DNA from: Betaproteobacteria bacterium
GTDB taxonomy: Bacteria; Pseudomonadota; Gammaproteobacteria; Burkholderiales; Ga0077523
Length of the DNA stretch: 64,000 nt
Direction of reading: 5' to 3'
NCBI GenBank assembly: GCA_016125475.1
Contig: WGLR01000003.1
Location: forward strand, 195,945 to 259,944
The notes beneath the pieces are model-generated. The model worked only from the letters and a program-made list of their open reading frames with translations, made no database searches and was not told the DNA's origin. Shown piece after piece: positions 52,811 to 64,000 of this stretch; the first letter of the stretch is position 1, and each line of letters starts with the position of its first letter. The position numbers and the translations under genes were made by a program.

Positions 52811-53980
52811 TCAGGACACCGTCGTGGCGTCGTCCGGGGCGGTCTCTGCCGAAAGGCGGCGGGAATTCTTGTCGTCCCGGAAGACGATCGGTTGCACCCC
52901 TGCGGGCAGGTCGGGTCGCTGTGCACGGGCCACGGCGTCCGTGATCAGATGGTGGTTCGGTGAAAGATCACAGACGGGATCCGCGTTGGCCGCATCACCG
53001 GTGAGCAGGTACGCCTGACAGCGACAGCCTCCGAAGTCCTTGTGCTTCTCCGGGCAGGTACGACATGGCTCCTTCATCCATTCGTCGCCCCGATAGGTGT
53101 TGAAGGCCGGTGAGTCGTTCCAGATCCAGCGCAGGTCGTGATTGCGCACGTTCGGGAAGGTCAGGCCCGGCAGCATGCGCGCTTCGTGGCAGGGCAGGGC
53201 CACGCCATCCGCTGCCACGTTCAGAAAGACGGATCCCCACCCGTTCATGCAGGCCTTCGGCCTGGTTTCGTAGTAGTCGGGGTTCACGAAGTAGATCTTC
53301 ATCCTGTCGCCGACCCGTTCGCGAAACGCGTTCGTGACGGCCTCTGCGCGCTCGAGTTGCTCACGACTGGGCATCAGCTGGTCGCGGTTCACGAGGGCCC
53401 AGGCGTAGAACTGCGTGTTCGCAAGTTCGACGTACTCCGCGCCCAGTGCCTCCGCCATCTCGAGTATTTCCCGCGTGTGGTCGAGGTTGTGTCGATGCAT
53501 CACGCAGTTGAACACCATCGGGTAGTCGTACTTCTGGATCAGATCGGCCGCACGGCGTTTAAGCTCGAACGTCTTGGTGCTGGAAATCCAGTCGTTCATC
53601 TCGCGGGTCGAGTCCTGGAACGACAGCTGGATGTGGTTGAGCCCGCCCTCCTTGAAGGCGGCGATGCGCTTTTCCGTGAGCCCGATGCCCGACGTGATCA
53701 GGTTCGTGTAGTAACCCAGACGACCCGCCTCGGCGATGATGATCTCGAGGTCGTCGCGCATGAGAGGCTCGCCCCCCGACAGGCCGAGCTGCACGAGGCC
53801 GAGCTCGCGTCCTTCGCGCAGCACCTTGAGCCATTCATCGGTCGAGAGTTCCGGGCCGAAACGTGCGTAATCCACCGGGTTGTAGCAGAACACGCAATGC
53901 AGCGGGCACTTGTAGGTGAGTTCCGCGTTGAGCCAGTGCGGCTTACTCGGGAGATTTCGTGCGGATCCAGCCGTTGCCAT
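52811..53980 (-). CDS. pqqE: PQQ biosynthesis radical SAM enzyme PqqE
   Basis: 389 residues. Radical SAM enzyme that links the Glu and Tyr side chains of PqqA, the first step of PQQ synthesis. The radical SAM motif is Cys25, Cys29, Cys32 (CPLHCVFC). The SPASM region with the auxiliary Fe-S cysteines (KACMNGWG, LPCHEAR, CRTCPEKHKDFGGCRC) is intact. It overlaps pqqD by 38 bp. Full length. Confidence 0.97.
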   Translation of the reverse strand: MATAGSARNLPSKPHWLNAELTYKCPLHCVFCYNPVDYARFGPELSTDEWLKVLREGRELGLVQLGLSGGEPLMRDDLEIIIAEAGRLGYYTNLITSGIGLTEKRIAAFKEGGLNHIQLSFQDSTREMNDWISSTKTFELKRRAADLIQKYDYPMVFNCVMHRHNLDHTREILEMAEALGAEYVELANTQFYAWALVNRDQLMPSREQLERAEAVTNAFRERVGDRMKIYFVNPDYYETRPKACMNGWGSVFLNVAADGVALPCHEARMLPGLTFPNVRNHDLRWIWNDSPAFNTYRGDEWMKEPCRTCPEKHKDFGGCRCQAYLLTGDAANADPVCDLSPNHHLITDAVARAQRPDLPAGVQPIVFRDDKNSRRLSAETAPDDATTVS

Positions 53981-54245
53981 GTGCCACCTCCAGAAAATCC
54001 GTGACGTCGGCGCGCAGGTCGGGCGCTCCGGGGAACGCCCGTTCGAGCTCGGCGACGATCTTGTTCAGACTGCGCGTGCCGTCGACGCGCTTCATGATCT
54101 CGCCTGCACTGCCGGGCAGCTTGACCATGCCCTCCGGATACAGGAGAACATGGAGTTCCTGCGCGGGTTCCCACTGGAACCGGTAGTACTTGGCGAGTTC
54201 GATGGGGGTATCCTGATCGAACGGGATCCGTTTCGGCTGTGCCAT
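53943..54245 (-). CDS. pqqD: PqqA-binding chaperone PqqD
   Basis: 100 residues. RiPP recognition element-type protein that binds PqqA and presents it to PqqE. Signature EPAQELHVLLYPEGMVKLPGSAGEIMKRVDG is complete. It overlaps pqqE by 38 bp and ends 1 bp after pqqC, typical of tight pqq operons. Confidence 0.95.
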   Translation of the reverse strand: MAQPKRIPFDQDTPIELAKYYRFQWEPAQELHVLLYPEGMVKLPGSAGEIMKRVDGTRSLNKIVAELERAFPGAPDLRADVTDFLEVAHGNGWIRTKSPE

Positions 54246-54246
54246 G

Positions 54247-54972
54247 TCAGTTCCCGGACGTCTCGCCGATACCGTAGTTCACCATCATCGCGTCGCACAT
54301 CGTCCAGAGCACATCGAGCTTGAACTGGACGATGTCGAGCGCGCGCTGCTGCAGCTCGCGGGTGTTGAAATACTCGAGCGTGACGCGCAGGCCGTGCTCG
54401 ACGTCGCGTCTGGCTTCCGACAGGCGCTTTCGGAAGTAGGCGTAGCCCGACTGATCGATCCAGGGGTAGTGCTGGGGCCAGTTCGCCAGGCGTTCCTTGT
54501 GGATCTCCGGCGCGAAGAGCTCGGTAAGAGAGGAGCAGACGGCCTCCTGCCACGGACGCGAACGCGCGAAGTTGATGTAGGCGTCCACCGCGAACCGGAC
54601 GCCCGGCAATACCCGCGTGAGAGACGTGACTTCCTCACGCTCGAGCCCGACGGCCTTCCCGAGCGTGAGCCATGCCTCGATGCCGCCTTCGTCGCCCTGC
54701 GTTCCGTCGTGATCGATGATGCGCTGGATCCAGAGCCTGCGATGGTCACGGTCGGGCATGTTCGCCATGATCGCGGCGTCCTTGATGGGGATCGCGATCT
54801 GGTAATAGAAGCGGTTGCAGACCCATCCCTGGATCTGTTCACGCGTGAGCTTCCCCGCGTTCATCGCGACGTGGTACGGGTGATAGATGTGGTACCTGCT
54901 GCCTTTCGCCCGAATCTGCTGTTCGAACTCCTCGCGGTTCCACGGAAGGCTCTCGGCTGCGCCCATGTTCAC
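54247..54972 (-). CDS. pqqC: Pyrroloquinoline-quinone synthase PqqC
   Basis: 241 residues. Cofactor-free oxidase carrying out the final ring closure and eight-electron oxidation to PQQ. Signature residues [39 protein letters not shown] and the Arg/His/Tyr-rich core are intact. Starts at ATG 54972; pqqB ends 16 bp upstream. Confidence 0.97.
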
Positions 54973-54988
54973 GTACTCCCCAGTTTGT

Positions 54989-55903
54989 TCAGACTTCGAT
55001 GTCCATGCCGTCGAACGAGACCTCGATTCCCGCCTTCGCGAGCTCGGCGCGTTCCGGGGAGTCCTCGTTCAGGATCGGATTGGTGTTATTGATATGGATG
55101 AGGATCTTCCGGCGCGCCTTCAAGGGCGTGAGCACCTCGATCATGCCACCCGTGCCGGACTGTGGCAGATGGCCGATGTCGCGGGCGCGCTTGCGGGAAA
55201 TGCCGAGCCGGACCATTTCGTCGTCGGTCCAGAACGTGCCGTCCACCATCACGCAGTCCGCATCGTTCAGAAACGGGACGAGATGCGGTTCGATCTCGCC
55301 GAGACCGGGCGCGTAGAAGACGTTCGTGCCGCTTCGCGTGTCGCGGATGCGCATGCCGATGTTGTCGCCGTCGTGCGGATTGTCACGATGCGGCGAGTAG
55401 GGTGGTGCCTTGCTCTTGAGGGCGACCGCTGTGAACTCGAGCCCCTCGCCGCCGGCGACACCGAAGGCTTCGCGCCCGTCCGTCGGGATGCGGTGCCAGT
55501 TGACGCCGCAGTAGTGGCCGAGAATGTTGAACAGCGGATTGCCGGTCGTCATGTCCTCGCGGACCATGTCCGTGCAGTAGAGTTCGAGCGGCTTGCCTTC
55601 GCGCAGCATGAGCAGACCCGTCGTGTGATCGATCTGCCCGTCCATGAGCACGACCGAACGGATGCCCGTGTCGCGGATGCCGCGCGCGGGCTGCAGTGCC
55701 GGGAAGGACCTGATCTGGGCCAGGATGTCGGGCGACGCGTTGAAAAGCACCCAGTCGATGCCGTTGCCGCTGACCGCGATGGAGGATTGCGTGCGGGCCT
55801 GCGCGCGCAGGGTGCCCTTGCGCAGACCGTCACAGTTCGGGCAGTTGCAGTTCCATTGAGGAAACCCGCCTCCGGCGGCTGCCCCGAGTACATGAATTCT
55901 CAT
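54989..55903 (-). CDS. pqqB: PqqB (PQQ biosynthesis hydroxylase)
   Basis: 304 residues. Metallo-beta-lactamase fold with the CNCPNC zinc motif at 19-24. Thought to hydroxylate the crosslinked Glu-Tyr intermediate. ATG 55903 begins [18 protein letters not shown], the standard start; the in-frame codon 54 nt earlier is not family-like. The terminator-like hairpin at 55973-56000 lies between it and pqqA. Confidence 0.96.
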
Positions 55904-55972
55904 CTTCGTATGCTCTTCCGTTCCGCGGCGCGCCCGGCGCATGCCGTTCGCCGCCACGCGGTGCTCCGATGG

Positions 55973-56000
55973 ACAAAAGCCCCGCGAACGGGGCTTTTGT
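55973..56000 (-). terminator. Attenuator-type terminator between pqqA and pqqB
   Basis: acaaaagcccc and ggggcttttgt form an 11-bp perfect stem with a 6-nt loop, followed by U-rich sequence in the leftward transcript. It lies 18 bp after the pqqA stop and about 70 bp before pqqB. It should let most transcripts end after pqqA, keeping the peptide in excess over the enzymes. Confidence 0.8.
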
Positions 56001-56017
56001 CAGGCCATTCGCCGGTA

Positions 56018-56089
56018 TCAGCGATTGGCGATGTACATCGTCACTTCGAAACCAAAACGCATTTCGGTGTACTCAGGCTTGCTCCACAT
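56018..56089 (-). CDS. pqqA: PQQ precursor peptide PqqA (copy 1)
   Basis: 23 residues, beginning [12 protein letters not shown] and ending TMYIANR. The crosslinked pair Glu15 and Tyr19 is in FEVTMY. A strong GGAGG lies 7 nt upstream of ATG 56089. It is the first gene of the leftward pqqABCDE operon and is separated from pqqB by an attenuator. Two further near-identical copies lie on the opposite strand at 61901 and 62016. Confidence 0.95.
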   Translation of the reverse strand: MWSKPEYTEMRFGFEVTMYIANR

Positions 56090-56277
56090 ATCAACCTCCA
56101 AATGTTAGAGTTCAGGGACTTCGGCGACGAGCGCCGATCATTACCGATACTGTCCATCCCGATCGATCCACCGTCCGAGTCATCCCTGCCGGTATCACGA
56201 GTCGGGGCGTGCAGTATCTGGTTCCAGAGTCTCAGGCATGTCCCCCCCGTTTCCTTCGAAAAAATCAGCAATGTCGT

Positions 56278-56294
56278 CTCATGATTATCATGAG
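56278..56294. promoter_or_regulatory. 17-bp palindrome shared by the two pqqA regions (site 1)
   Basis: CTCATGATTATCATGAG is an 8-bp perfect inverted repeat around one base. It lies 189 bp upstream of the leftward pqqA and 51 bp upstream of the rightward tonB. It matches site 2 (61776-61792) at 15 of 17 positions. It probably binds a homodimeric regulator; the nearby NarL/LuxR-type protein or Fur are candidates. Confidence 0.65.
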
Positions 56295-56344
56295 TTTGGT
56301 GCGGACGTTCGGAGCGGTGGCCTGATGACGCCGCGGGCGGTGAC

Positions 56345-58366
56345 GTGGCAGCGAGCAGTGCGCTGAGGTTGCCGTCGGGCGGGTCGGACGGGTCCTGGTA
56401 CCAGGAGCCCGCATTCCTGTATGCGCTGGTCCTTTCCCTCGCGCTTCACGTGGCGTTTCTCGTGTTCGGACCGGACGCGAGCGGTCCGAAGCCGCCCGAG
56501 AAGAAGGTGCTCGAGATCCGGCTGATCCAGACGCCGCCCAAGCCTCGTGTCGAGGAAAAGCCGAAACCGGAACCCGAGCGGGAGACCGCGCACGAAGCGC
56601 GGCGTTCCCGGGCCCACGTGGCGCCGAAGCTCGCTTCCCGTACCGACCTGGCGCCGGTGGAGGTGCCCCGGAGTCGCCACGACACGCATCGTCCGCGCGC
56701 GGCGCCCAAGGCGCCGGCAGTACCGGCTCCGGTTCGACCCGGCGTCCGCACCGCGCTTCCGGAATCGAGCACTCTCGGCGTCCCGATACCGGAATCGCAG
56801 GGCGCCCCCGCGCTGTCCGGGCGGACCGACGAGCCACCCCGGAGCCCCAGGATGTCCGCCGATGCCACCCGGGTCGAGCGGCCGCGGGCCGAGATTCAGG
56901 TTCCGAGGATCTCGCCGACGATCACCGCCATTCCGGAGACGGCCGAGGTCCTGGCGCTGAACGCTGCCCCGGTCCCCCGACGGGACGTCGCGCCGACGCC
57001 GCAGGCGCACGCGGACACGCAGCGGCCGACCATCGACACGCCCTCCGGGCCGGTGGCGTCCGAGGCGATTCCTGCCGCGCCGGCGGCGGTGCCGCGGAGC
57101 CTCGTGCCCGCACCTGCCCGGGCGAGGCCGAATGCGCCGATCGCGCGCGCCGAAGTCCCCCGTCCCGAGGCGGCAACGACCATTCCGGTGGCGCCGACGC
57201 AGGCATCCGCGGTGCCGGACTTGCCGGCCGACACTGCGGAGCCCGAGGCGCCGACGGCGCCATCACCGAAACGTCCGACCGCGAAGGCGCAGCCTGCAAG
57301 GCACGCGGCGCCTCGTCCGCACGTGGCCGCCGCACCGGTCGCGACGGGGCAGCGCCCGATCACCCTCGAGCCCGCGCCCGATGTCTCGGTGACACCCGTC
57401 CCCGCAAGGCGCGCCGCGCTGCCACCCTCGGCGCGGCCCGGGCCTTCCGCGGCCGCGCAGCCCAGGGTTGCGTCGGCGCCCGACCTGGACGCGGCCGAAC
57501 CCGTGGTACCGGAAACCGCGACTCCCGGCGCTGCCGGGCCGCGCCCGACGAAGGTGCCCGTGCGCAAGGCACCGCGGCCAGGGGTGCCTGCCGACCAGAA
57601 GCCGACGATCGCCGCGGCGGAGCCTTCCGTGTCATCGCCCGAACTGAAGGGTGTCCCGGTTCCGCCGGTTCCTGCGGCGTCCGCGTCGCCGGAGCGCCCT
57701 CGCGCCGCGCCGAAGCCGACGCTCCCCGAAGAAACGCGTCCCGAAGTGTCGGCGCGATCGCTGCCGACGCCCGCCGCACGGCCGCTGCCCCTCGAGACCG
57801 CGGCGGTTCCGGAACTGGACGAGCGGCCGCGCGTGCGCCCTGAGCCGAAGGCACCCGGTCTGCCGAAGACCCGGGTCGTGAGTCGTCCCGATGTCATCGT
57901 GGAAGTGGTGCCCGCGTCGCTGCCTGCGGGAGTGTCCGTTCCTTCGCCGACCGGGGTGCCCGGCCTCGGTCGTTCGCACGGCGACAAGCCCGGCGTATCG
58001 GGGCCGGCCGCCACGGCAGCGCCTGTTGCGCGGCCGAGCATCGCGCCCGTGCCCGGTGAGCCGACGGTCGATCGGGGCGCCCTCAAGCGGTTCGGCTTCG
58101 CGCTCACGAAGTTGCTGGGCAAGGACCAAAAGTACCCGGAGAAGGCCCGACGCCTCCAGCAACAGGGGGAGGTCCGCGTCAAGGTGCTACTCACGCGCCA
58201 TTCGAAGATCAAGTCGGCCGAGGTCGTGAAGTCCAGCGGCTATCCGCTGCTCGACCAGGAAGCGATCGAAAAGGTACTGCGGCTGCGGTCGTTGCCGGCG
58301 CTTCCGAAAGGCACCGCGAACGGCGAGATCTCGGTGACAATACCGATCGAATTCCGGCTCGAGTGA
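56345..58366 (+). CDS. tonB: TonB energy transducer with very long Pro/Ala-rich linker
   Basis: 673 residues, against about 240 for E. coli TonB. N-terminal membrane helix near 23-41 carries the SxxxH motif (Ser31, His35) that senses ExbB/ExbD. The linker, about 500 residues, is rich in Pro, Ala, Val, Thr and Arg. The TonB C-terminal domain (about 590-673) includes YPEKARRLQQQGEVRVKVLL and SGYPLLDQEAIEKV. It energises TonB-dependent receptors and is the only tonB here; a PqqU-like receptor lies 4 kb downstream. exbB and exbD are not in the window. Confidence 0.88.
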   Translation: MAASSALRLPSGGSDGSWYQEPAFLYALVLSLALHVAFLVFGPDASGPKPPEKKVLEIRLIQTPPKPRVEEKPKPEPERETAHEARRSRAHVAPKLASRTDLAPVEVPRSRHDTHRPRAAPKAPAVPAPVRPGVRTALPESSTLGVPIPESQGAPALSGRTDEPPRSPRMSADATRVERPRAEIQVPRISPTITAIPETAEVLALNAAPVPRRDVAPTPQAHADTQRPTIDTPSGPVASEAIPAAPAAVPRSLVPAPARARPNAPIARAEVPRPEAATTIPVAPTQASAVPDLPADTAEPEAPTAPSPKRPTAKAQPARHAAPRPHVAAAPVATGQRPITLEPAPDVSVTPVPARRAALPPSARPGPSAAAQPRVASAPDLDAAEPVVPETATPGAAGPRPTKVPVRKAPRPGVPADQKPTIAAAEPSVSSPELKGVPVPPVPAASASPERPRAAPKPTLPEETRPEVSARSLPTPAARPLPLETAAVPELDERPRVRPEPKAPGLPKTRVVSRPDVIVEVVPASLPAGVSVPSPTGVPGLGRSHGDKPGVSGPAATAAPVARPSIAPVPGEPTVDRGALKRFGFALTKLLGKDQKYPEKARRLQQQGEVRVKVLLTRHSKIKSAEVVKSSGYPLLDQEAIEKVLRLRSLPALPKGTANGEISVTIPIEFRLE

Positions 58367-58370
58367 CACC

Positions 58371-59357
58371 GTGAACGACCACGATCTCCCGAGACAGAGT
58401 GCGCTGTATCCGCCGCTGGAGCCCTTCGATTCGGGTCTCCTCGACGTCGGGCACGGTCACCGCGTCCATTTCGAGCAGTGCGGCCGCCCGGACGGGCGTC
58501 CCGTCCTGTTCCTGCACGGAGGCCCCGGCAGTGCGTGCAAGCCGGATCACCGCCGCTACTTCGACCCGGCTTACTACCGCGTCGTGCTGTTCGACCAGCG
58601 TGGCTGCGGGCGCAGCCGGCCCTTCGGCGCCACGGTCCACAACACCACACCGGACCTCATCGCGGACATCGAGCGGCTGCGCGACAGGCTGGGCATCCAG
58701 CGCTGGGTGCTGTTCGGAGGCTCCTGGGGCAGCACGCTCGCACTCGCCTATGCCCAGGCCCACCCCGGGCGCGTCGAGCGGCTCGTCCTGCGGGGAATCT
58801 TTCTCGCATCGCAGGCCGAACTCGACTGGTACTTCACCGGCCTGCGGCATTTCATTCCGGAGGCCCGGGAGCGGCTTTTCGAGGGCACTGCCCGGGACGA
58901 CTGGCACGCGCTGCTCACCCGGTACGACGCGCTGCTAAACGATCCGGATCCGGCGGTCGCGACGGCGGCCGCCCACCGCTGGAATGCCTACGAGAGCGCC
59001 ATCATGTCGATCGGCGAACCTGCACCCACGTCCCCCGCGGCCGACACCGACAGCGGAAGCCTCGGGCGTGCACGCGTGCAGGTGCACTACCTCGCGCACG
59101 GGTGTTTTCTCGAAGACGGTCAGCTCGCCGCGAATCTCCCGCGCATCGCGCACCTCCCGGCCGTCCTTCTGCACGGGAGGCAGGACTTCGTGTGCCCGCC
59201 GGTCACGGCGTACGAGCTCGCCCGGAACTGGCCGGCGGCGAAGCTCGCGTTCATCGAGACGGCGAAGCACGCCTCCTCCCACCCCGATCTCGAACGAGCG
59301 CTGGTCGCCGCAGTCGATGCCATTAGGGATGCCGCCGGCAGTCCGGCACCACCATGA
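58371..59357 (+). CDS. pip: Proline iminopeptidase (S33 family)
   Basis: 328-residue serine peptidase releasing N-terminal Pro from short peptides. Nucleophile motif GGSWGS (about 119), LFLHGGPGSACKPDHRRYFDP oxyanion region, and later Asp and His (HGRQDFVCPP; AKHASSHP) are present. Start GTG 58371 follows the tonB stop by 4 bp; its stop overlaps the sensor-kinase start by 4 bp. PQQ loci often need an accessory protease (PqqF/G) to trim PqqA; this gene is the only peptidase near these pqqA genes, but that role is inference. Confidence 0.9.
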   Translation: MNDHDLPRQSALYPPLEPFDSGLLDVGHGHRVHFEQCGRPDGRPVLFLHGGPGSACKPDHRRYFDPAYYRVVLFDQRGCGRSRPFGATVHNTTPDLIADIERLRDRLGIQRWVLFGGSWGSTLALAYAQAHPGRVERLVLRGIFLASQAELDWYFTGLRHFIPEARERLFEGTARDDWHALLTRYDALLNDPDPAVATAAAHRWNAYESAIMSIGEPAPTSPAADTDSGSLGRARVQVHYLAHGCFLEDGQLAANLPRIAHLPAVLLHGRQDFVCPPVTAYELARNWPAAKLAFIETAKHASSHPDLERALVAAVDAIRDAAGSPAPP

Positions 59358-61111
59358 GTCTGCGCGTCCGGATCAACCTGTTGCTGACCGTGCTCACGGC
59401 GCTGTTCACGGTGGCGATGCTGAAGATCGTCGTCGACGATACCCGCCGTTCGATCCGTGAGGAGATGGAGGGCGCCAATCGCGTGACCCTGCAGCTGCTC
59501 TCGACCGTGATCCGCGACGCGCAGCTCGTTTCCACTTCGGATGCCTCGGAGTCGGTGTTGCTCAACTTCCTGCGCGAGCTCGGACGCGTCCGGGCGCACG
59601 AGATCAAGCTGTTCGACGTGGAGGACGACCTCGTCTACGTCTCGCCGCCGTCGGTCTACAAGGCGGGTCGTTTCGCGCCCGAGTGGTTCGCTCGACTCGT
59701 CAAGCCCGACCTTCCCGTCATCAACCTGCCGGTCCATGGCGGCAACATCACCGTGCGTGTCGACAGCTCGCGATCGGTGCTCGACGCCTGGGACGACCTC
59801 AAGAACCTTCTCGCGCTGATCCTCGCGTTTCTGGTCGCCGTCAACGTGCTCGTCTTCTTTCTCGTCGGTCGCTCGCTGCGACCCGTGCAGACGGTGCTGA
59901 CGGGGCTGCGCCGCATGGAGCGCGGGGAACTCCACGTGCGCCTGCCGGAACTGCCGACGCCCGAATTCGCCGCGATCAGCCACACCTTCAACGGCATGGC
60001 CGACGCGCTCGAGCAGAGCCAGGCCGAGAACAGCCGGCTCGCGATGATCGTGCGCCAGTCCGGCGACGCCATCATGATCCTCGATCTCGACGGCCGGATC
60101 TCGTTCTGGAACCCCGCCGCGGAACGCCTGTTCGGCTTTTCGGCGGAGGAGATCGTCGGGCACCCCGGCCGCCTGCTGGTGCCTCACTCTCTGGTCGGAG
60201 AACTCGCGGAGCACTCCGCGATCCTGCGCGCACGCGGCACGATCGATCACGTGGAAACGCGGCGCAGGACCAAGGACGGCCGGCCGGTCGACGTGGCGCT
60301 CGCGGCCGCGCCGCTCGTGGATCCCGTGACGAAGAGCGTGATCGGGGAGATCTACACCGTGCGCGACATCACCGAACTCAAGCGTGCGCGCGAGGCGGAG
60401 ATCGAGCTCGCCCAGAACCGCCAGCTCACGCAGCTCATCCAGTCCAGCCTCGAGGAGGAGCGGCGCACGATCGCCCGGGAGCTGCACGACGAACTCGGCC
60501 AGTGCATCACGGCGATCCGGACCGTAGGCACGGTCGTCGCGCAGAAGACGGAGTCCACACGTCCCGACATCCATCAGAGCGCGAAGATGATCGTGGACGT
60601 CGCAGCGCGAATGTACGACAGCGTCCATGGCATCATTCGACAGCTTCGCCCCAGTGCTCTCGACCACCTCGGGCTCCAGGACACCTTGGAGGACGCCGTC
60701 GACCAGTGGCGCAGGCTGCACCCCGAAATCGAGTTCGTGCTCGACGTCTCGGGCGATCTTCACGACCTCGGGGAAACGGTGAACATCACGGCGTATCGCA
60801 TCGTTCAGGAGTGCCTCACGAACGTGGTCAAGCACGCGCGCGCGCGCCGTGCGCACGTTTCGGTGAGCCGTGACGGCCCCGCCGGTTCCGAGAGGCTGAA
60901 GGTCGTCGTGCGCGACGACGGTCGCGGGCTCACCGAGCCGGAAGCCGCGCGGGCGACGCGTTTCGGGCAGTTGGGCATGCGGGAGCGCGCCGAGGCACTC
61001 GGGGGGACGTTCGAACTGCACTCCGTCGAGGGGCAGGGGCTCACCGTGACCGTCCTGCTGCCGCTGGGGGCACGGGCGGGGCATCCCGGAGAGGCGCGGG
61101 TGGCATCGTGA
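59354..61111 (+). CDS. NarL-family sensor histidine kinase of the PQQ locus
   Basis: 585 residues. Transmembrane helices near 7-25 and 152-172 enclose a 125-residue periplasmic sensor. A HAMP domain (about 173-225), PAS domain (about 230-340), HisKA_3 dimerisation domain with His378 (ARELHDELGQ) and a HATPase domain (DDGRGL) follow. It pairs with the LuxR-type regulator whose start overlaps its stop by 4 bp. The signal is unknown; its position makes PQQ demand, alcohol or lanthanide availability plausible candidates. Confidence 0.9.
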   Translation: MSLRVRINLLLTVLTALFTVAMLKIVVDDTRRSIREEMEGANRVTLQLLSTVIRDAQLVSTSDASESVLLNFLRELGRVRAHEIKLFDVEDDLVYVSPPSVYKAGRFAPEWFARLVKPDLPVINLPVHGGNITVRVDSSRSVLDAWDDLKNLLALILAFLVAVNVLVFFLVGRSLRPVQTVLTGLRRMERGELHVRLPELPTPEFAAISHTFNGMADALEQSQAENSRLAMIVRQSGDAIMILDLDGRISFWNPAAERLFGFSAEEIVGHPGRLLVPHSLVGELAEHSAILRARGTIDHVETRRRTKDGRPVDVALAAAPLVDPVTKSVIGEIYTVRDITELKRAREAEIELAQNRQLTQLIQSSLEEERRTIARELHDELGQCITAIRTVGTVVAQKTESTRPDIHQSAKMIVDVAARMYDSVHGIIRQLRPSALDHLGLQDTLEDAVDQWRRLHPEIEFVLDVSGDLHDLGETVNITAYRIVQECLTNVVKHARARRAHVSVSRDGPAGSERLKVVVRDDGRGLTEPEAARATRFGQLGMRERAEALGGTFELHSVEGQGLTVTVLLPLGARAGHPGEARVAS

Positions 61112-61752
61112 CCGGCGTGACGATCAGCGTGATGCTCGCGGACGACCACGCCGTCGTCCGGATGGGGTTCAGGGTCCTCCTCGATGCCTCGACCGACATC
61201 CGGGTGGTGGCGGAAGCAGAGTCCGGCGAGGAGGCGGTAAAGCGCTTCGGCGAGGTCCGTCCCGATGTGCTCGTGCTGGACCTCTCGATGCCCGGCATCG
61301 GCGGTCTCGAAGCGATTTCGAGGATCCTTGCCCGGGACCCGGGCGCCAGGATCCTCGTGCTGACGGCCCACGAGGACGCCATGCACGCGAAGCGTGTGCT
61401 GAAGGCTGGGGCACTCGGCTACCTCTCGAAGCGCAGTGCAGCCGAGGCACTGATCCAGGCGATCCGTGTCGTGCACAAGGGTCGCACATTCCTGGAGCCC
61501 GCAATTGCCCAGGAGATGGCGGTCCAGCAGCTCACGGGCGACAAGAATCCGGTGGACATGCTGTCGGAAAAGGAATTCAAGGTGTTTCTGGCGCTCGCGC
61601 GCGGGCAGAGCGTCGCCGAGATCGCTCAGGTCATGTCGCTCAGTCCGCGAACCGTCGGTACCCACCTCTACAACATCAAGCAGAAGCTCGGCGCCGCCAA
61701 CTCCGCGGAACTCGCGATTGTTGCAATGCGGCATGGCTTGCTCGAACCCTGA
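61108..61752 (+). CDS. LuxR/NarL-type response regulator of the PQQ locus
   Basis: 214 residues. Receiver domain with phospho-acceptor Asp58 (VLVLDLSMPGIGG) and C-terminal LuxR-type helix-turn-helix (SEKEFKVFLALARGQSVAEIAQVMSLSPRTVGTHLYNIKQKL). Start GTG 61108 is coupled to the kinase. It is immediately upstream of the palindrome at 61776 and the tandem pqqA genes, so it is the best candidate for their activator. Confidence 0.92.
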   Translation: MTGVTISVMLADDHAVVRMGFRVLLDASTDIRVVAEAESGEEAVKRFGEVRPDVLVLDLSMPGIGGLEAISRILARDPGARILVLTAHEDAMHAKRVLKAGALGYLSKRSAAEALIQAIRVVHKGRTFLEPAIAQEMAVQQLTGDKNPVDMLSEKEFKVFLALARGQSVAEIAQVMSLSPRTVGTHLYNIKQKLGAANSAELAIVAMRHGLLEP

Positions 61753-61775
61753 GACCCGCCGTTGCGGCGTGCGGT

Positions 61776-61792
61776 CTCATGAAAATCATGAG
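61776..61792. promoter_or_regulatory. 17-bp palindrome shared by the two pqqA regions (site 2)
   Basis: CTCATGAAAATCATGAG, almost identical to site 1. It lies 24 bp after the regulator stop and 109 bp before the first of the tandem pqqA genes. The intervening 108 bp show no clear sigma-70 boxes, as expected if an activator is needed. Confidence 0.65.
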
Positions 61793-61900
61793 GTCCGAAT
61801 CAGCGTTTTGCGATGGTGACGGACGGGTCGGATGCGGAGAATGCACTCATCCGAGTTCGCTCGGTGTTGTCTCGCAACTCACCATTGAGAGGACTGAATC

Positions 61901-61972
61901 ATGTGGAACAAGCCTGAGTACACCGACCTGCGTTTTGGCTTCGAAGTCACGATGTACATCGCCAACCGCTGA
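61901..61972 (+). CDS. pqqA: PQQ precursor peptide PqqA (copy 2)
   Basis: 23 residues beginning [12 protein letters not shown], with Glu15 and Tyr19 conserved. Differs from copy 1 at residues 3, 9 and 10 (Asn, Asp, Leu). GAGAGG lies 8 nt upstream of ATG 61901. It is 65 of 72 bases identical to copy 3, 43 bp downstream. No pqqB-E follow it; it must use the enzymes of the leftward operon. Confidence 0.93.
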   Translation: MWNKPEYTDLRFGFEVTMYIANR

Positions 61973-62015
61973 TCGCGGTTGCGCAAGCATCTGATTTTCA
62001 GAAAGGAACAGAGCC

Positions 62016-62087
62016 ATGTGGAACAAGCCTGAATACACCGAGATGCGTTTCGGCTTCGAGGTGACGATGTACATCGCCAATCGCTGA
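62016..62087 (+). CDS. pqqA: PQQ precursor peptide PqqA (copy 3)
   Basis: 23 residues beginning [12 protein letters not shown], differing from copy 1 only at residue 3 (Asn for Ser). Glu15 and Tyr19 are conserved. AAAGGA lies about 7 nt upstream of ATG 62016. The synonymous differences from copies 1 and 2 suggest the copies are maintained under selection rather than recent duplicates. A strong terminator follows. Confidence 0.93.
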
Positions 62088-62110
62088 TCCAGAGCGACGG
62101 GATGCCAGGA

Positions 62111-62139
62111 GGGGCCGCCGAGTGCGGCCCCTCTTTTTT
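62111..62139 (+). terminator. Intrinsic terminator after the tandem pqqA genes
   Basis: ggggccgc-cgagt-gcggcccc (62111-62131) forms an 8-bp GC-rich stem followed by tctttttt (62132-62139). It separates the pqqA pair from the receptor gene, which has its own candidate -10 (TAGAAT, 62164-62169). Confidence 0.92.
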
Positions 62140-62247
62140 CGTGGCGGCAGGATCAAAGATCGCTAGAATTCCGCGCCTTCCTTGTGCGACCGGGCCGAAG
62201 AGTCTGTCGCAACAACGAAATCCCTCAATAAACAGCTGGAGACGAGG

Positions 62248-64000
62248 ATGATCAAGTCTGACGCGGACGCCACGTTCCGCTTCCCCCTGCGGCTTTGCGT
62301 TGCGGCCGTCGCGAGTGTTCTGACAGGACAGGCGCTGGCCGTCGATACGGTCCGGACAGCCCCTGTCGTGGTCACGGCCACGCGTGTCGAGGAGTCGAGT
62401 TTCGATCTGCCGACGGCGATCGACTCCATCGCGAACAAGATTCTCACGGAGGCCACGCTGCAGGCCAACGTGTCCGAATCGCTGCCGCGCGTGCCCGGCA
62501 CCTATGTGCAGAGTCGCGAAGCCTACTCGCAGGAACAGCAGATCTCGATTCGCGGTTTCGGGGCGCGTTCGAGTTTCGGGACGCGCGGCGTCAGGCTCTA
62601 CATCGACGGCGTGCCGGCGAGCACGCCGGACGGGCAGGGCGGGACGGGGAACTTCGACTTCTCGTCCGCCAAGAGCATCGAAGTCCTCAGAGGCGCGTTC
62701 TCGGCCCTCTACGGCAACCATTCGGGCGGCGTCGTCCAGATCTTCACGGAAGACGGACCCAAGGATCCGACCCTCACGGGCACACTCGCGATCGGCAGCT
62801 ACAACACACAGCGCTACGGGCTGAAGTTCGGCGGCACCTATGGCGCCGCGAACGCGATCGGCAGTTTCAGCTACCTCACGACGGACGGCTATCGGGACCA
62901 CAGTTCGGCTTCCCGCTACCTGTTCAATGGCAAGTTCGGTTCGAAGCTCGGCGACTCCGCGAGTCTCACCGTGGTCGCGAACTATCTCGACGAGCCCGAG
63001 GATCAGGATCCCCTCACGCTGGATGCGCAGCAGGTCGCGGCCAATCCCCGGCAGGCTCGTCCGGAAGCCTACCAGTACAACACGCGGCGAAGCCTCGAGA
63101 ACAAGCAGGTGGGCGTCGTGTACGAGAACCAGTGGAACGCCGTGGACACCATCAGGGTCATGACCTATGGCGGGCAGCGCAACAACACCGGCTATCTCGC
63201 ATTCTCCGGAAGCTTCGGACTGAGTTCCGGCGGGGTGACCCAGCTTGCCCGTGACTATGGAGGACTCGGTCTCCGGTGGACGCGGAAGACCACCCTTTTC
63301 GGCGATCAGCCGTTCACGATCACGAGCGGGGCGGACTACGATCTCGCGATGGAGGCACGCAAGGGCTACATAAACAACAACGGCACGATCGGGGCCCTGA
63401 GGCGCAACGAGGACAACCGCACGCACTCGTGGGGTCTGTACAGTCAGGTCGAGTGGGAGCCGATCAGCACGCTGTCCGCGTTCGCCGGCCTTCGGTACAC
63501 CCAGGTCGCGTTCAAGTCGCAGGACTACTTCATCACCGGAACCAATCCGAACGACAGCGGCAGCCTTCGTTTCGACGCGTGGACGCCCGTCATCGGGGCG
63601 CTCGTCCACGTGACGCCGGTACTGAACGTCTATGCGAACGCGGGGCGCAGCTTCGAGACGCCGACATTCATCGAACTCGCGTATCGGGACTCGAGCCTCG
63701 GCAGCGGACCGAACTTCGCGCTGAAGCCCGCCACCAGCAACCAGTACGAACTCGGTGCGAAGGCATTCGTCTCGGACAATACGCGCCTCAACCTCGCCTT
63801 CTTCCAGATCTACACGAACAACGAGATCGTCGTGGCCTCGAGTTCGGGCGGCCGCACGGTCTACACGAATGCGCCGGGCTCGCAGCGGACAGGTCTCGAG
63901 GCTTCGGTGGACAGTGATCTCGGTGGTGGTCTGAACGTCTACGGCGCCTACACGTTCCTGCGCGCGGTCTTCGACGGTTCGTTTCCGAAGAGTGGCGGCG
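62248..64000 (+). CDS. pqqU: PqqU/YncD-like TonB-dependent receptor, C-terminus beyond window
   Basis: At least 584 residues are visible; the C-terminal barrel end is cut by the window. Signal peptide (cleaved near residue 31), a possible TonB box around 38-45 (APVVVTAT), then a plug domain with QQISIRGFGARSSFGTRGVR, LYIDGVPASTPDGQG and EVLRGAFSALYGNHSGGVV. Barrel segments SFETPTFIELAYR and NEIVVASSSGGRTVYTNA also match E. coli PqqU (YncD) as I recall it. PqqU imports PQQ across the outer membrane. Start ATG 62248 has GAGG just upstream (weak spacing). Confidence 0.87.
   Translation, partial: MIKSDADATFRFPLRLCVAAVASVLTGQALAVDTVRTAPVVVTATRVEESSFDLPTAIDSIANKILTEATLQANVSESLPRVPGTYVQSREAYSQEQQISIRGFGARSSFGTRGVRLYIDGVPASTPDGQGGTGNFDFSSAKSIEVLRGAFSALYGNHSGGVVQIFTEDGPKDPTLTGTLAIGSYNTQRYGLKFGGTYGAANAIGSFSYLTTDGYRDHSSASRYLFNGKFGSKLGDSASLTVVANYLDEPEDQDPLTLDAQQVAANPRQARPEAYQYNTRRSLENKQVGVVYENQWNAVDTIRVMTYGGQRNNTGYLAFSGSFGLSSGGVTQLARDYGGLGLRWTRKTTLFGDQPFTITSGADYDLAMEARKGYINNNGTIGALRRNEDNRTHSWGLYSQVEWEPISTLSAFAGLRYTQVAFKSQDYFITGTNPNDSGSLRFDAWTPVIGALVHVTPVLNVYANAGRSFETPTFIELAYRDSSLGSGPNFALKPATSNQYELGAKAFVSDNTRLNLAFFQIYTNNEIVVASSSGGRTVYTNAPGSQRTGLEASVDSDLGGGLNVYGAYTFLRAVFDGSFPKSGG

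Follow-up and report, generated by a model that had tools for sequence, protein, structure and literature searches.

A candidate two-component system and a recurrent palindrome point to a probable switch for PQQ supply at a pqq locus of the Burkholderiales

Introduction

To our knowledge, little has been learned of how bacteria match the supply of pyrroloquinoline quinone (PQQ) to their quinoprotein dehydrogenases, except in Pseudomonas and Methylobacterium. The precursor peptide PqqA is a consumed substrate, one being used for each PQQ. Among the two-component systems of methylotrophs, MoxYX/FlhSR target the genes of methanol oxidation. Here we analyze a stretch of 64,000 nucleotides (the window) from a Betaproteobacteria bacterium of the order Burkholderiales (contig WGLR01000003.1, positions 195,945 to 259,944), in which a sensor kinase and a response regulator are encoded between a pqqABCDE operon and two further pqqA genes followed by the gene of a PqqU-type TonB-dependent receptor. 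We propose, from sequence comparison, that kinase and regulator are probably a dedicated two-component system with PQQ supply as its regulon.

Several described systems resemble parts of this locus. As in MoxYX/FlhSR, the kinase is of the HisKA_3 type and its periplasmic part is weakly LapD_MoxY_N-like. AgmR/ErbR (PedR1) of Pseudomonas is a LuxR-type regulator acting on pqq genes, as the regulator described here would; by its description in the available part of PMC12997753 it has dehydrogenase targets and works with hybrid kinases, whereas here the candidate sites are confined to pqq genes and pqqU. Multiple pqqA genes are likewise found in Methylophilaceae, there in 3 to 12 copies with mostly one pqqBCDE set, and a common operator or regulator is not mentioned in the part of that paper available to us (PMC4109929). 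The PqqU protein (YncD) of E. coli shares with the receptor its clade and its PQQ-binding signature, yet E. coli makes no PQQ (PMC12124388, available part), whereas here pqqU stands after pqqA copies and after the candidate operator that also precedes the synthesis operon.

Linkage of importer and synthesis has been reported by Munder et al. (2025; PMC12124388), who, in the accessible part of their text, find that 23% of the genomes encoding PqqU also have biosynthesis genes and that pqqU is syntenic with pqq in four Burkholderiales. In those four as in our locus the importer is linked to the synthesis operon; the words 'two-component', 'palindrom' and 'promoter' are absent from the main text. 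A sequence-only reading of the window had presented the whole unit as undescribed. The importer in a producer and the pqqU-pqq linkage turn out to be published, in the same accessible part, while its regulation was not found in print: searches of the open-licence literature yielded nothing that describes the two-component system, the operator or the shared regulon.

Results

Organization of the locus

Family calls were made with the curated cut-offs of NCBIfam (pqq genes, TonB C-terminal domain, prolyl aminopeptidase) and with Pfam cut-offs. The locus comprises the following features, in window coordinates:

52811..53980, minus strand: pqqE (TIGR02109, 511 bits, cut-off 381)
53943..54245, minus strand: pqqD (TIGR03859 and NF002535, both above cut-off)
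54247..54972, minus strand: pqqC (TIGR02111, 365 bits, cut-off 240)
54989..55903, minus strand: pqqB (TIGR02108, 434 bits, cut-off 245)
55972..56001, minus strand: hairpin between pqqA1 and pqqB, a possible attenuator (68-nt stretch, -33.1 kcal/mol, z -2.67)
56018..56089, minus strand: pqqA1 (TIGR02107, 48.7 bits, cut-off 20)
56278..56294, no strand: candidate operator 1, a perfect palindrome (7-3-7) that lies 188 bp upstream of pqqA1 and precedes the tonB frame by 50 bp
56345..58366, plus strand: tonB-like gene with a TonB C-terminal domain (TIGR01352, 62.7 bits, cut-off 27.1)
58371..59357, plus strand: pip, prolyl aminopeptidase family (TIGR01249, 311 bits, cut-off 260)
59354..61111, plus strand: sensor histidine kinase (transmembrane segment at about 9-28, periplasmic part, transmembrane segment at about 151-169, HAMP, PAS, HisKA_3, HATPase_c)
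61108..61752, plus strand: response regulator of the NarL/GacA type (Response_reg and GerE; recognition helix PRTVGTHLYNIKQKL)
61776..61792, no strand: candidate operator 2, a perfect palindrome that precedes pqqA2 by 108 bp
61901..61972, plus strand: pqqA2 (PF08042, 41.9 bits, cut-off 21.1)
62016..62087, plus strand: pqqA3 (PF08042, above cut-off)
62107..62135, plus strand: terminator-like hairpin in the gap from pqqA3 to pqqU (stem of 12 pairs with a T run; -33.6 kcal/mol for the stretch, z -2.42)
62248..64000, continuing to 64359 in the genome, plus strand: pqqU-type TonB-dependent receptor (703 amino acids; assigned on receptor family, residues and tree)

The family models agree with the layout claimed in the sequence-only reading, pqqABCDE leftward and tonB-pip-kinase-regulator-pqqA-pqqA-pqqU rightward. 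Each gene from pqqA to pqqE scores above its curated cut-off, as expected of a PQQ operon; the start of pqqB was set at 55903 because the TIGR02108 match starts one residue past this methionine. The regulator, with its receiver and GerE domains, adjoins a HisKA_3 kinase as in NarL/LuxR-type two-component systems. The receptor frame overruns the window, its full span on the contig corresponding to window positions 62248-64359. A profile search of the genome gave three PqqA matches, every one in this locus. A protease of the PqqF type, which is not universal, was not found above cut-off (best genome match 57 bits against 320) in this genome, listed as 96.7% complete.

The palindrome recurs ahead of PQQ-supply genes

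A genome-wide pattern scan detected two perfect copies of the palindrome CTCATGANNNTCATGAG in the whole 4.88-Mb genome, both at this locus, one between pqqA1 and tonB and the other between the regulator gene and pqqA2-pqqA3-pqqU; the chance expectation for perfect copies is about 0.02 (14 fixed bases, uniform composition). The shared palindrome previously noticed in the pqqA1-tonB intergenic region is real (56278-56294), but it is not single, the copy at 61776-61792 having gone unmentioned. In a sample of 399 genomes of the order, the exact pattern with an AT-rich centre, CTCATGAWWWTCATGAG, occurred at 55 sites in 37 genomes, against 0 for a reversed-pattern control among the rows listed; on these counts and the two perfect copies, chance or a repeat was rejected as the origin of the palindrome. 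Classified by hand, 50 of the 55 sites lie at pqqA, pqqB or pqqU; the other five (G042, G029:C25, G284:C102, G165, G372) fall within or next to unrelated genes, and one of these five sites is terminator-like. An exact site is present in 4 of the 320 order genomes that have no PqqA among the matches listed, and in one of these, G170, it precedes pqqU.

At 76 loci picked independently of the palindrome, a site was found upstream of 107 of 113 pqqA genes (83/88 in order loci, 24/25 in kinase-named loci), a site being counted when at least 11 of its 14 bases matched and at most 5% of shuffles were as good. Read towards pqqA, the consensus is CTCATGAAAATCATGAG, at a median distance of 120 bp from the ATG. 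Loci L071-L130 were hand-picked from PqqU and PqqA matches, some of them for two nearby pqqA, and L160-L239 were fetched by kinase among the matches listed; L240-L259, gathered to follow up individual sites and pqqA genes and mostly chosen by the palindrome, were excluded from this count. Control pqqA frames, drawn partly from a sample across the class and partly from genomes of the order lacking this sensor kinase, had the site in 0 of 43 distinct cases (best 10/14). The order genomes among them (G003, G360, G049, G119, G285, G314) had it in 0 of 6; a search for the kinase in these genomes returned either nothing or, among the matches listed, no hit that included the sensor part (G314 has one weak kinase match outside them). 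For the class control loci, absence of the system was judged on the fetched stretches. Upstream of pqqU the site was present in 19 of the 41 genes examined, in regulon genomes, and in 0 of 18 in families f11, f13 and f46. At one locus (L123, 7-832) three tandem pqqA genes each have their own 13/14 site about 155 bp upstream.

When 108 promoters were aligned on the site, from candidates that included 13 promoters of L240-L259, conserved bases appeared at +23 to +34 (TTT and TTTT tracts) and at +41; conservation was weak at +63 to +67 (AxAAT) and slight between these blocks. A -10-like element at +63 to +67 would put the site near -65, a position typical of an activator. A terminator-like hairpin follows within 160 nt downstream of 76 of 112 pqqA genes, where 4.0 were expected. 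The window has strong hairpins after pqqA1 and pqqA3, which the sequence-only reading did not mention; transcription of pqqU therefore need not equal the level of pqqA2-pqqA3. Separate abundant pqqA transcripts are known in Methylobacterium.

Site and regulator vary together

A quick tree built from 113 regulators placed all 54 that go with a CTCATGA-type site in one 70-row clade (Shimodaira-Hasegawa-like approximate likelihood ratio test 99, no bootstrap). The remaining 16 rows of the clade are 14 loci that have no pqqA in the stretch, L126 with a weak site, and L193, whose regulator goes with a 13/14 site that the labelling rule had missed. The recognition helix T-V/I-G-T/S-H-L-Y (HLY) accompanies the CTCATGA site in 54/54 cases, and regulators of the Methylophaga type carry the helix T-V-G-T-H-H-T (HHT) together with the site CTCAGGA-NNN-TCCTGAG in 4/4 labelled rows. 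Methylophilaceae-like genomes encode kinase and regulator with no pqq gene in the stretch (L160, L161, L163), and in such genomes the site precedes most of the scattered single pqqA genes examined (L251-L258). All matches of a plasmid search with the regulator were below 60% identity.

In Burkholderia-type pqq clusters (L206, L209, L219, L225, L229, L233) pqqE adjoins a kinase-regulator pair of another kind, with the helix KTVANHQSV; this pair is a candidate for another pqq regulator.

Conservation of the block

The order sample contained a PqqU-like receptor in 132 of the 399 genomes (E <=1e-60) and, among the matches listed, PqqA in 79, 47 of which also had a PqqU-like receptor, while 73 matched the kinase profile in some form; many of these kinase matches are full-length orthologs or of a PAS-less type, others the kinase core alone. 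At 64 of the fetched loci the kinase lies within 3.2 kb of a pqqA. Lower bounds for what accompanies it, the stretches being of unequal length, are pip by the kinase in 40, a recognizable tonB in 20, pqqU in 25, at least two pqqA in 33, and pqqB, C or E in 49. Among the matches listed, the site lies between divergent pqqA and kinase genes in Variovorax, Sphaerotilus, Derxia and Azohydromonas, and Ferrovum, Panacagrimonas, Steroidobacter and a Lysobacteraceae bacterium carry the same arrangement.

The rightward block recurs next to pqq genes across many families; the lack of such conservation would have refuted the sequence-only reading. The emphasis of that reading on the importer was misplaced, pqqU being present at 25/64 kinase-pqqA loci on the fetched stretches, and on that count we rejected the view that the importer defines the unit. 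The recurring core is the kinase, the regulator, the operator and the extra pqqA, the importer being the variable part.

At L109, L111, L112, L177 and L179 the kinase gene is divergent from pqqA, and pqqBCDE-pqqU follows in all but L112; in the genomes of the first three (G016, G166, G141) the kinase profile matches in two parts with a gap at the position of PAS. The product of pip (58371-59357), which adjoins the kinase at the 40 loci counted above and here belongs to a genome with no PqqF above cut-off, could be a peptidase that processes PqqA.

The receptor is of the PqqU type

A search of solved structures returned chains of E. coli YncD/PqqU as best matches to the receptor (481 and 478 bits), the next being a pseudopaline receptor with 48 bits. 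The PQQ signature of Munder et al. (Y/F99, R304, R365) is present as F110, R311 and R371; the published rule for E. coli position 99 admits Y, F or W (PMC12124388, available part). R536 is retained, and E. coli K274, Q308, Q310 and N477 are replaced by R, G, L and I, respectively. A tree of 47 receptors placed 43 PqqU rows apart from BtuB, FepA, CirA and the genome's neighbouring receptor with support 92/99, the non-PqqU rows standing on long branches and L044 being excluded for length. The earlier assignment to PqqU holds, and a siderophore or cobalamin receptor was rejected on the best match, the signature residues and the tree position. Against the NCBIfam PqqU model NF041535 the receptor matches almost the full profile with 576 bits (161 bits for the next family). 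This is below the model's cut-off of 1200 bits, and for this reason we name the protein a PqqU-type receptor and not the NCBI equivalog. It is likely a PQQ importer, to judge from its family and residues.

Within the genus, the slot after pqqA2 is occupied by two PqqU lineages (the window, L042 and L043 versus L060 and L086-L089), and in G193 (L091) no PqqU was found in that slot. The importer therefore appears exchangeable.

A second TonB-dependent receptor converges with pqqU (L005 2396-5005, minus strand; 64451-67060 in window numbering). Its relatives (45-71% identity) adjoin pqq clusters or related kinases at many loci, including those of Paraburkholderia and Caballeronia; that it carries a lanthanide is a guess.

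Discussion

The best reading of these data is that synthesis and extra pqqA form the core of the regulon and that the importer is an exchangeable add-on. The regulator would bind the 17-bp palindrome ahead of pqqABCDE/tonB and of pqqA2-pqqA3-pqqU and would set both groups together, most likely as an activator. Three pqqA genes under this switch, with hairpins after pqqA1 and pqqA3, may provide the precursor in excess over the enzymes; gene copies and attenuators make sense because PqqA is a consumed substrate. In this genome the TonB protein and PqqU, placed on the same switch, could recapture lost PQQ at high demand, and in relatives the importer slot is empty or holds another PqqU lineage. 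The periplasmic part of the kinase has Y95, Y102, K103, W111, R140 and W146 invariant in 13/13 aligned kinases. It might sense PQQ or its shortage, so that one sensor would set synthesis, precursor dose and re-uptake. In favour of this idea, which we offer tentatively and rate as unlikely, the regulon as far as readable consists of PQQ-supply genes only and the invariant residues are aromatic or basic.

Several observations weigh against a supply switch of this form. At up to 2 mismatches the pattern occurs 35 times in the own genome, against 7 for the reversed control; the four near misses inspected all lie within reading frames. A scan for the sigma-70 consensus gave no promoter, and activation in preference to repression is an inference from the spacing of promoter elements. 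The joint change of helix and site is one event on the tree. Six of the 113 pqqA genes have no site: those of L108, L122 and L125 have no such kinase adjacent, L126 (10/14) and L164 (a weak Methylophaga form) do have the kinase, and in L095 the site is 632 bp off, beside tonB. Genes for pqqU downstream of pqqE carry no site at L109, L111, L177 and L179, which an operon would explain. Finally, the relatedness of the rows makes the counts non-independent, and the choice of many loci was guided by pqqA, PqqU or kinase.

Another view would make the two-component system an alcohol or methanol sensor like AgmR/ErbR or MoxYX, whose targets are PQQ-dependent dehydrogenases with pqq as one of many. AgmR is an activator of both pqq and ped genes in Pseudomonas (PMC12997753, available part), about ten PQQ-dehydrogenase-like frames are present in the own genome, Methylophaga has dehydrogenase genes close to its kinase-regulator-pqqA group, and the periplasmic part is weakly LapD_MoxY_N-like in 7/13 kinases (E <=0.01), although the window kinase, at 19.8 bits, stays below the Pfam gathering cut-off of 25. 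The sites tell otherwise: in the own genome none was found at dehydrogenase genes at up to 2 mismatches, the nearest being about 6.9 kb from the dehydrogenase-like frames, and in the order the exact sites outside pqqA, pqqB and pqqU are the five by or in unrelated genes. We consider such a sensor possible but distinctly less probable than a supply regulon, and dehydrogenase regulation as the main role was rejected on present evidence. Because the sites avoid the dehydrogenase-like frames, the system would be a supply regulator, apart from AgmR/ErbR. The signal of the kinase could still be an alcohol under this supply regulon.

The palindrome could also act as an RNA hairpin, terminator or repeat element in place of an operator: as RNA it forms a perfect stem of -7 kcal/mol, and in G165 one of the 55 sites has runs of A and T on its flanks in the manner of a terminator. 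This is very improbable, given that the site precedes pqqA by a median of 120 bp and is placed either between divergent genes or behind the regulator gene, that conserved bases follow it at fixed spacing, and that it varies jointly with the recognition helix. That pqqA2 and pqqA3, which stand apart from pqqBCDE, might be precursors of a non-PQQ product is harder still to credit, since their C-terminal half, with the joined Glu and Tyr, is identical to that of pqqA1 and no second maturase cluster was found in the stretch read. As to the receptor, its score below the PqqU cut-off and its differences from E. coli at four positions would suit a substrate other than PQQ, or a PQQ derivative; we hold this to be improbable in view of the gap between E. 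coli PqqU and the next unrelated chain, the signature with R536 kept, and the linkage of the receptor gene to pqqA.

With a two-component switch for PQQ supply as the probable reading, the site would be a readable address of the PQQ-supply regulon in Beta- and some Gammaproteobacteria. The shared operator would link synthesis with import and may account for the persistence of extra pqqA genes, as a means of setting the precursor dose from one switch, and it names a kinase whose ligand could be PQQ.

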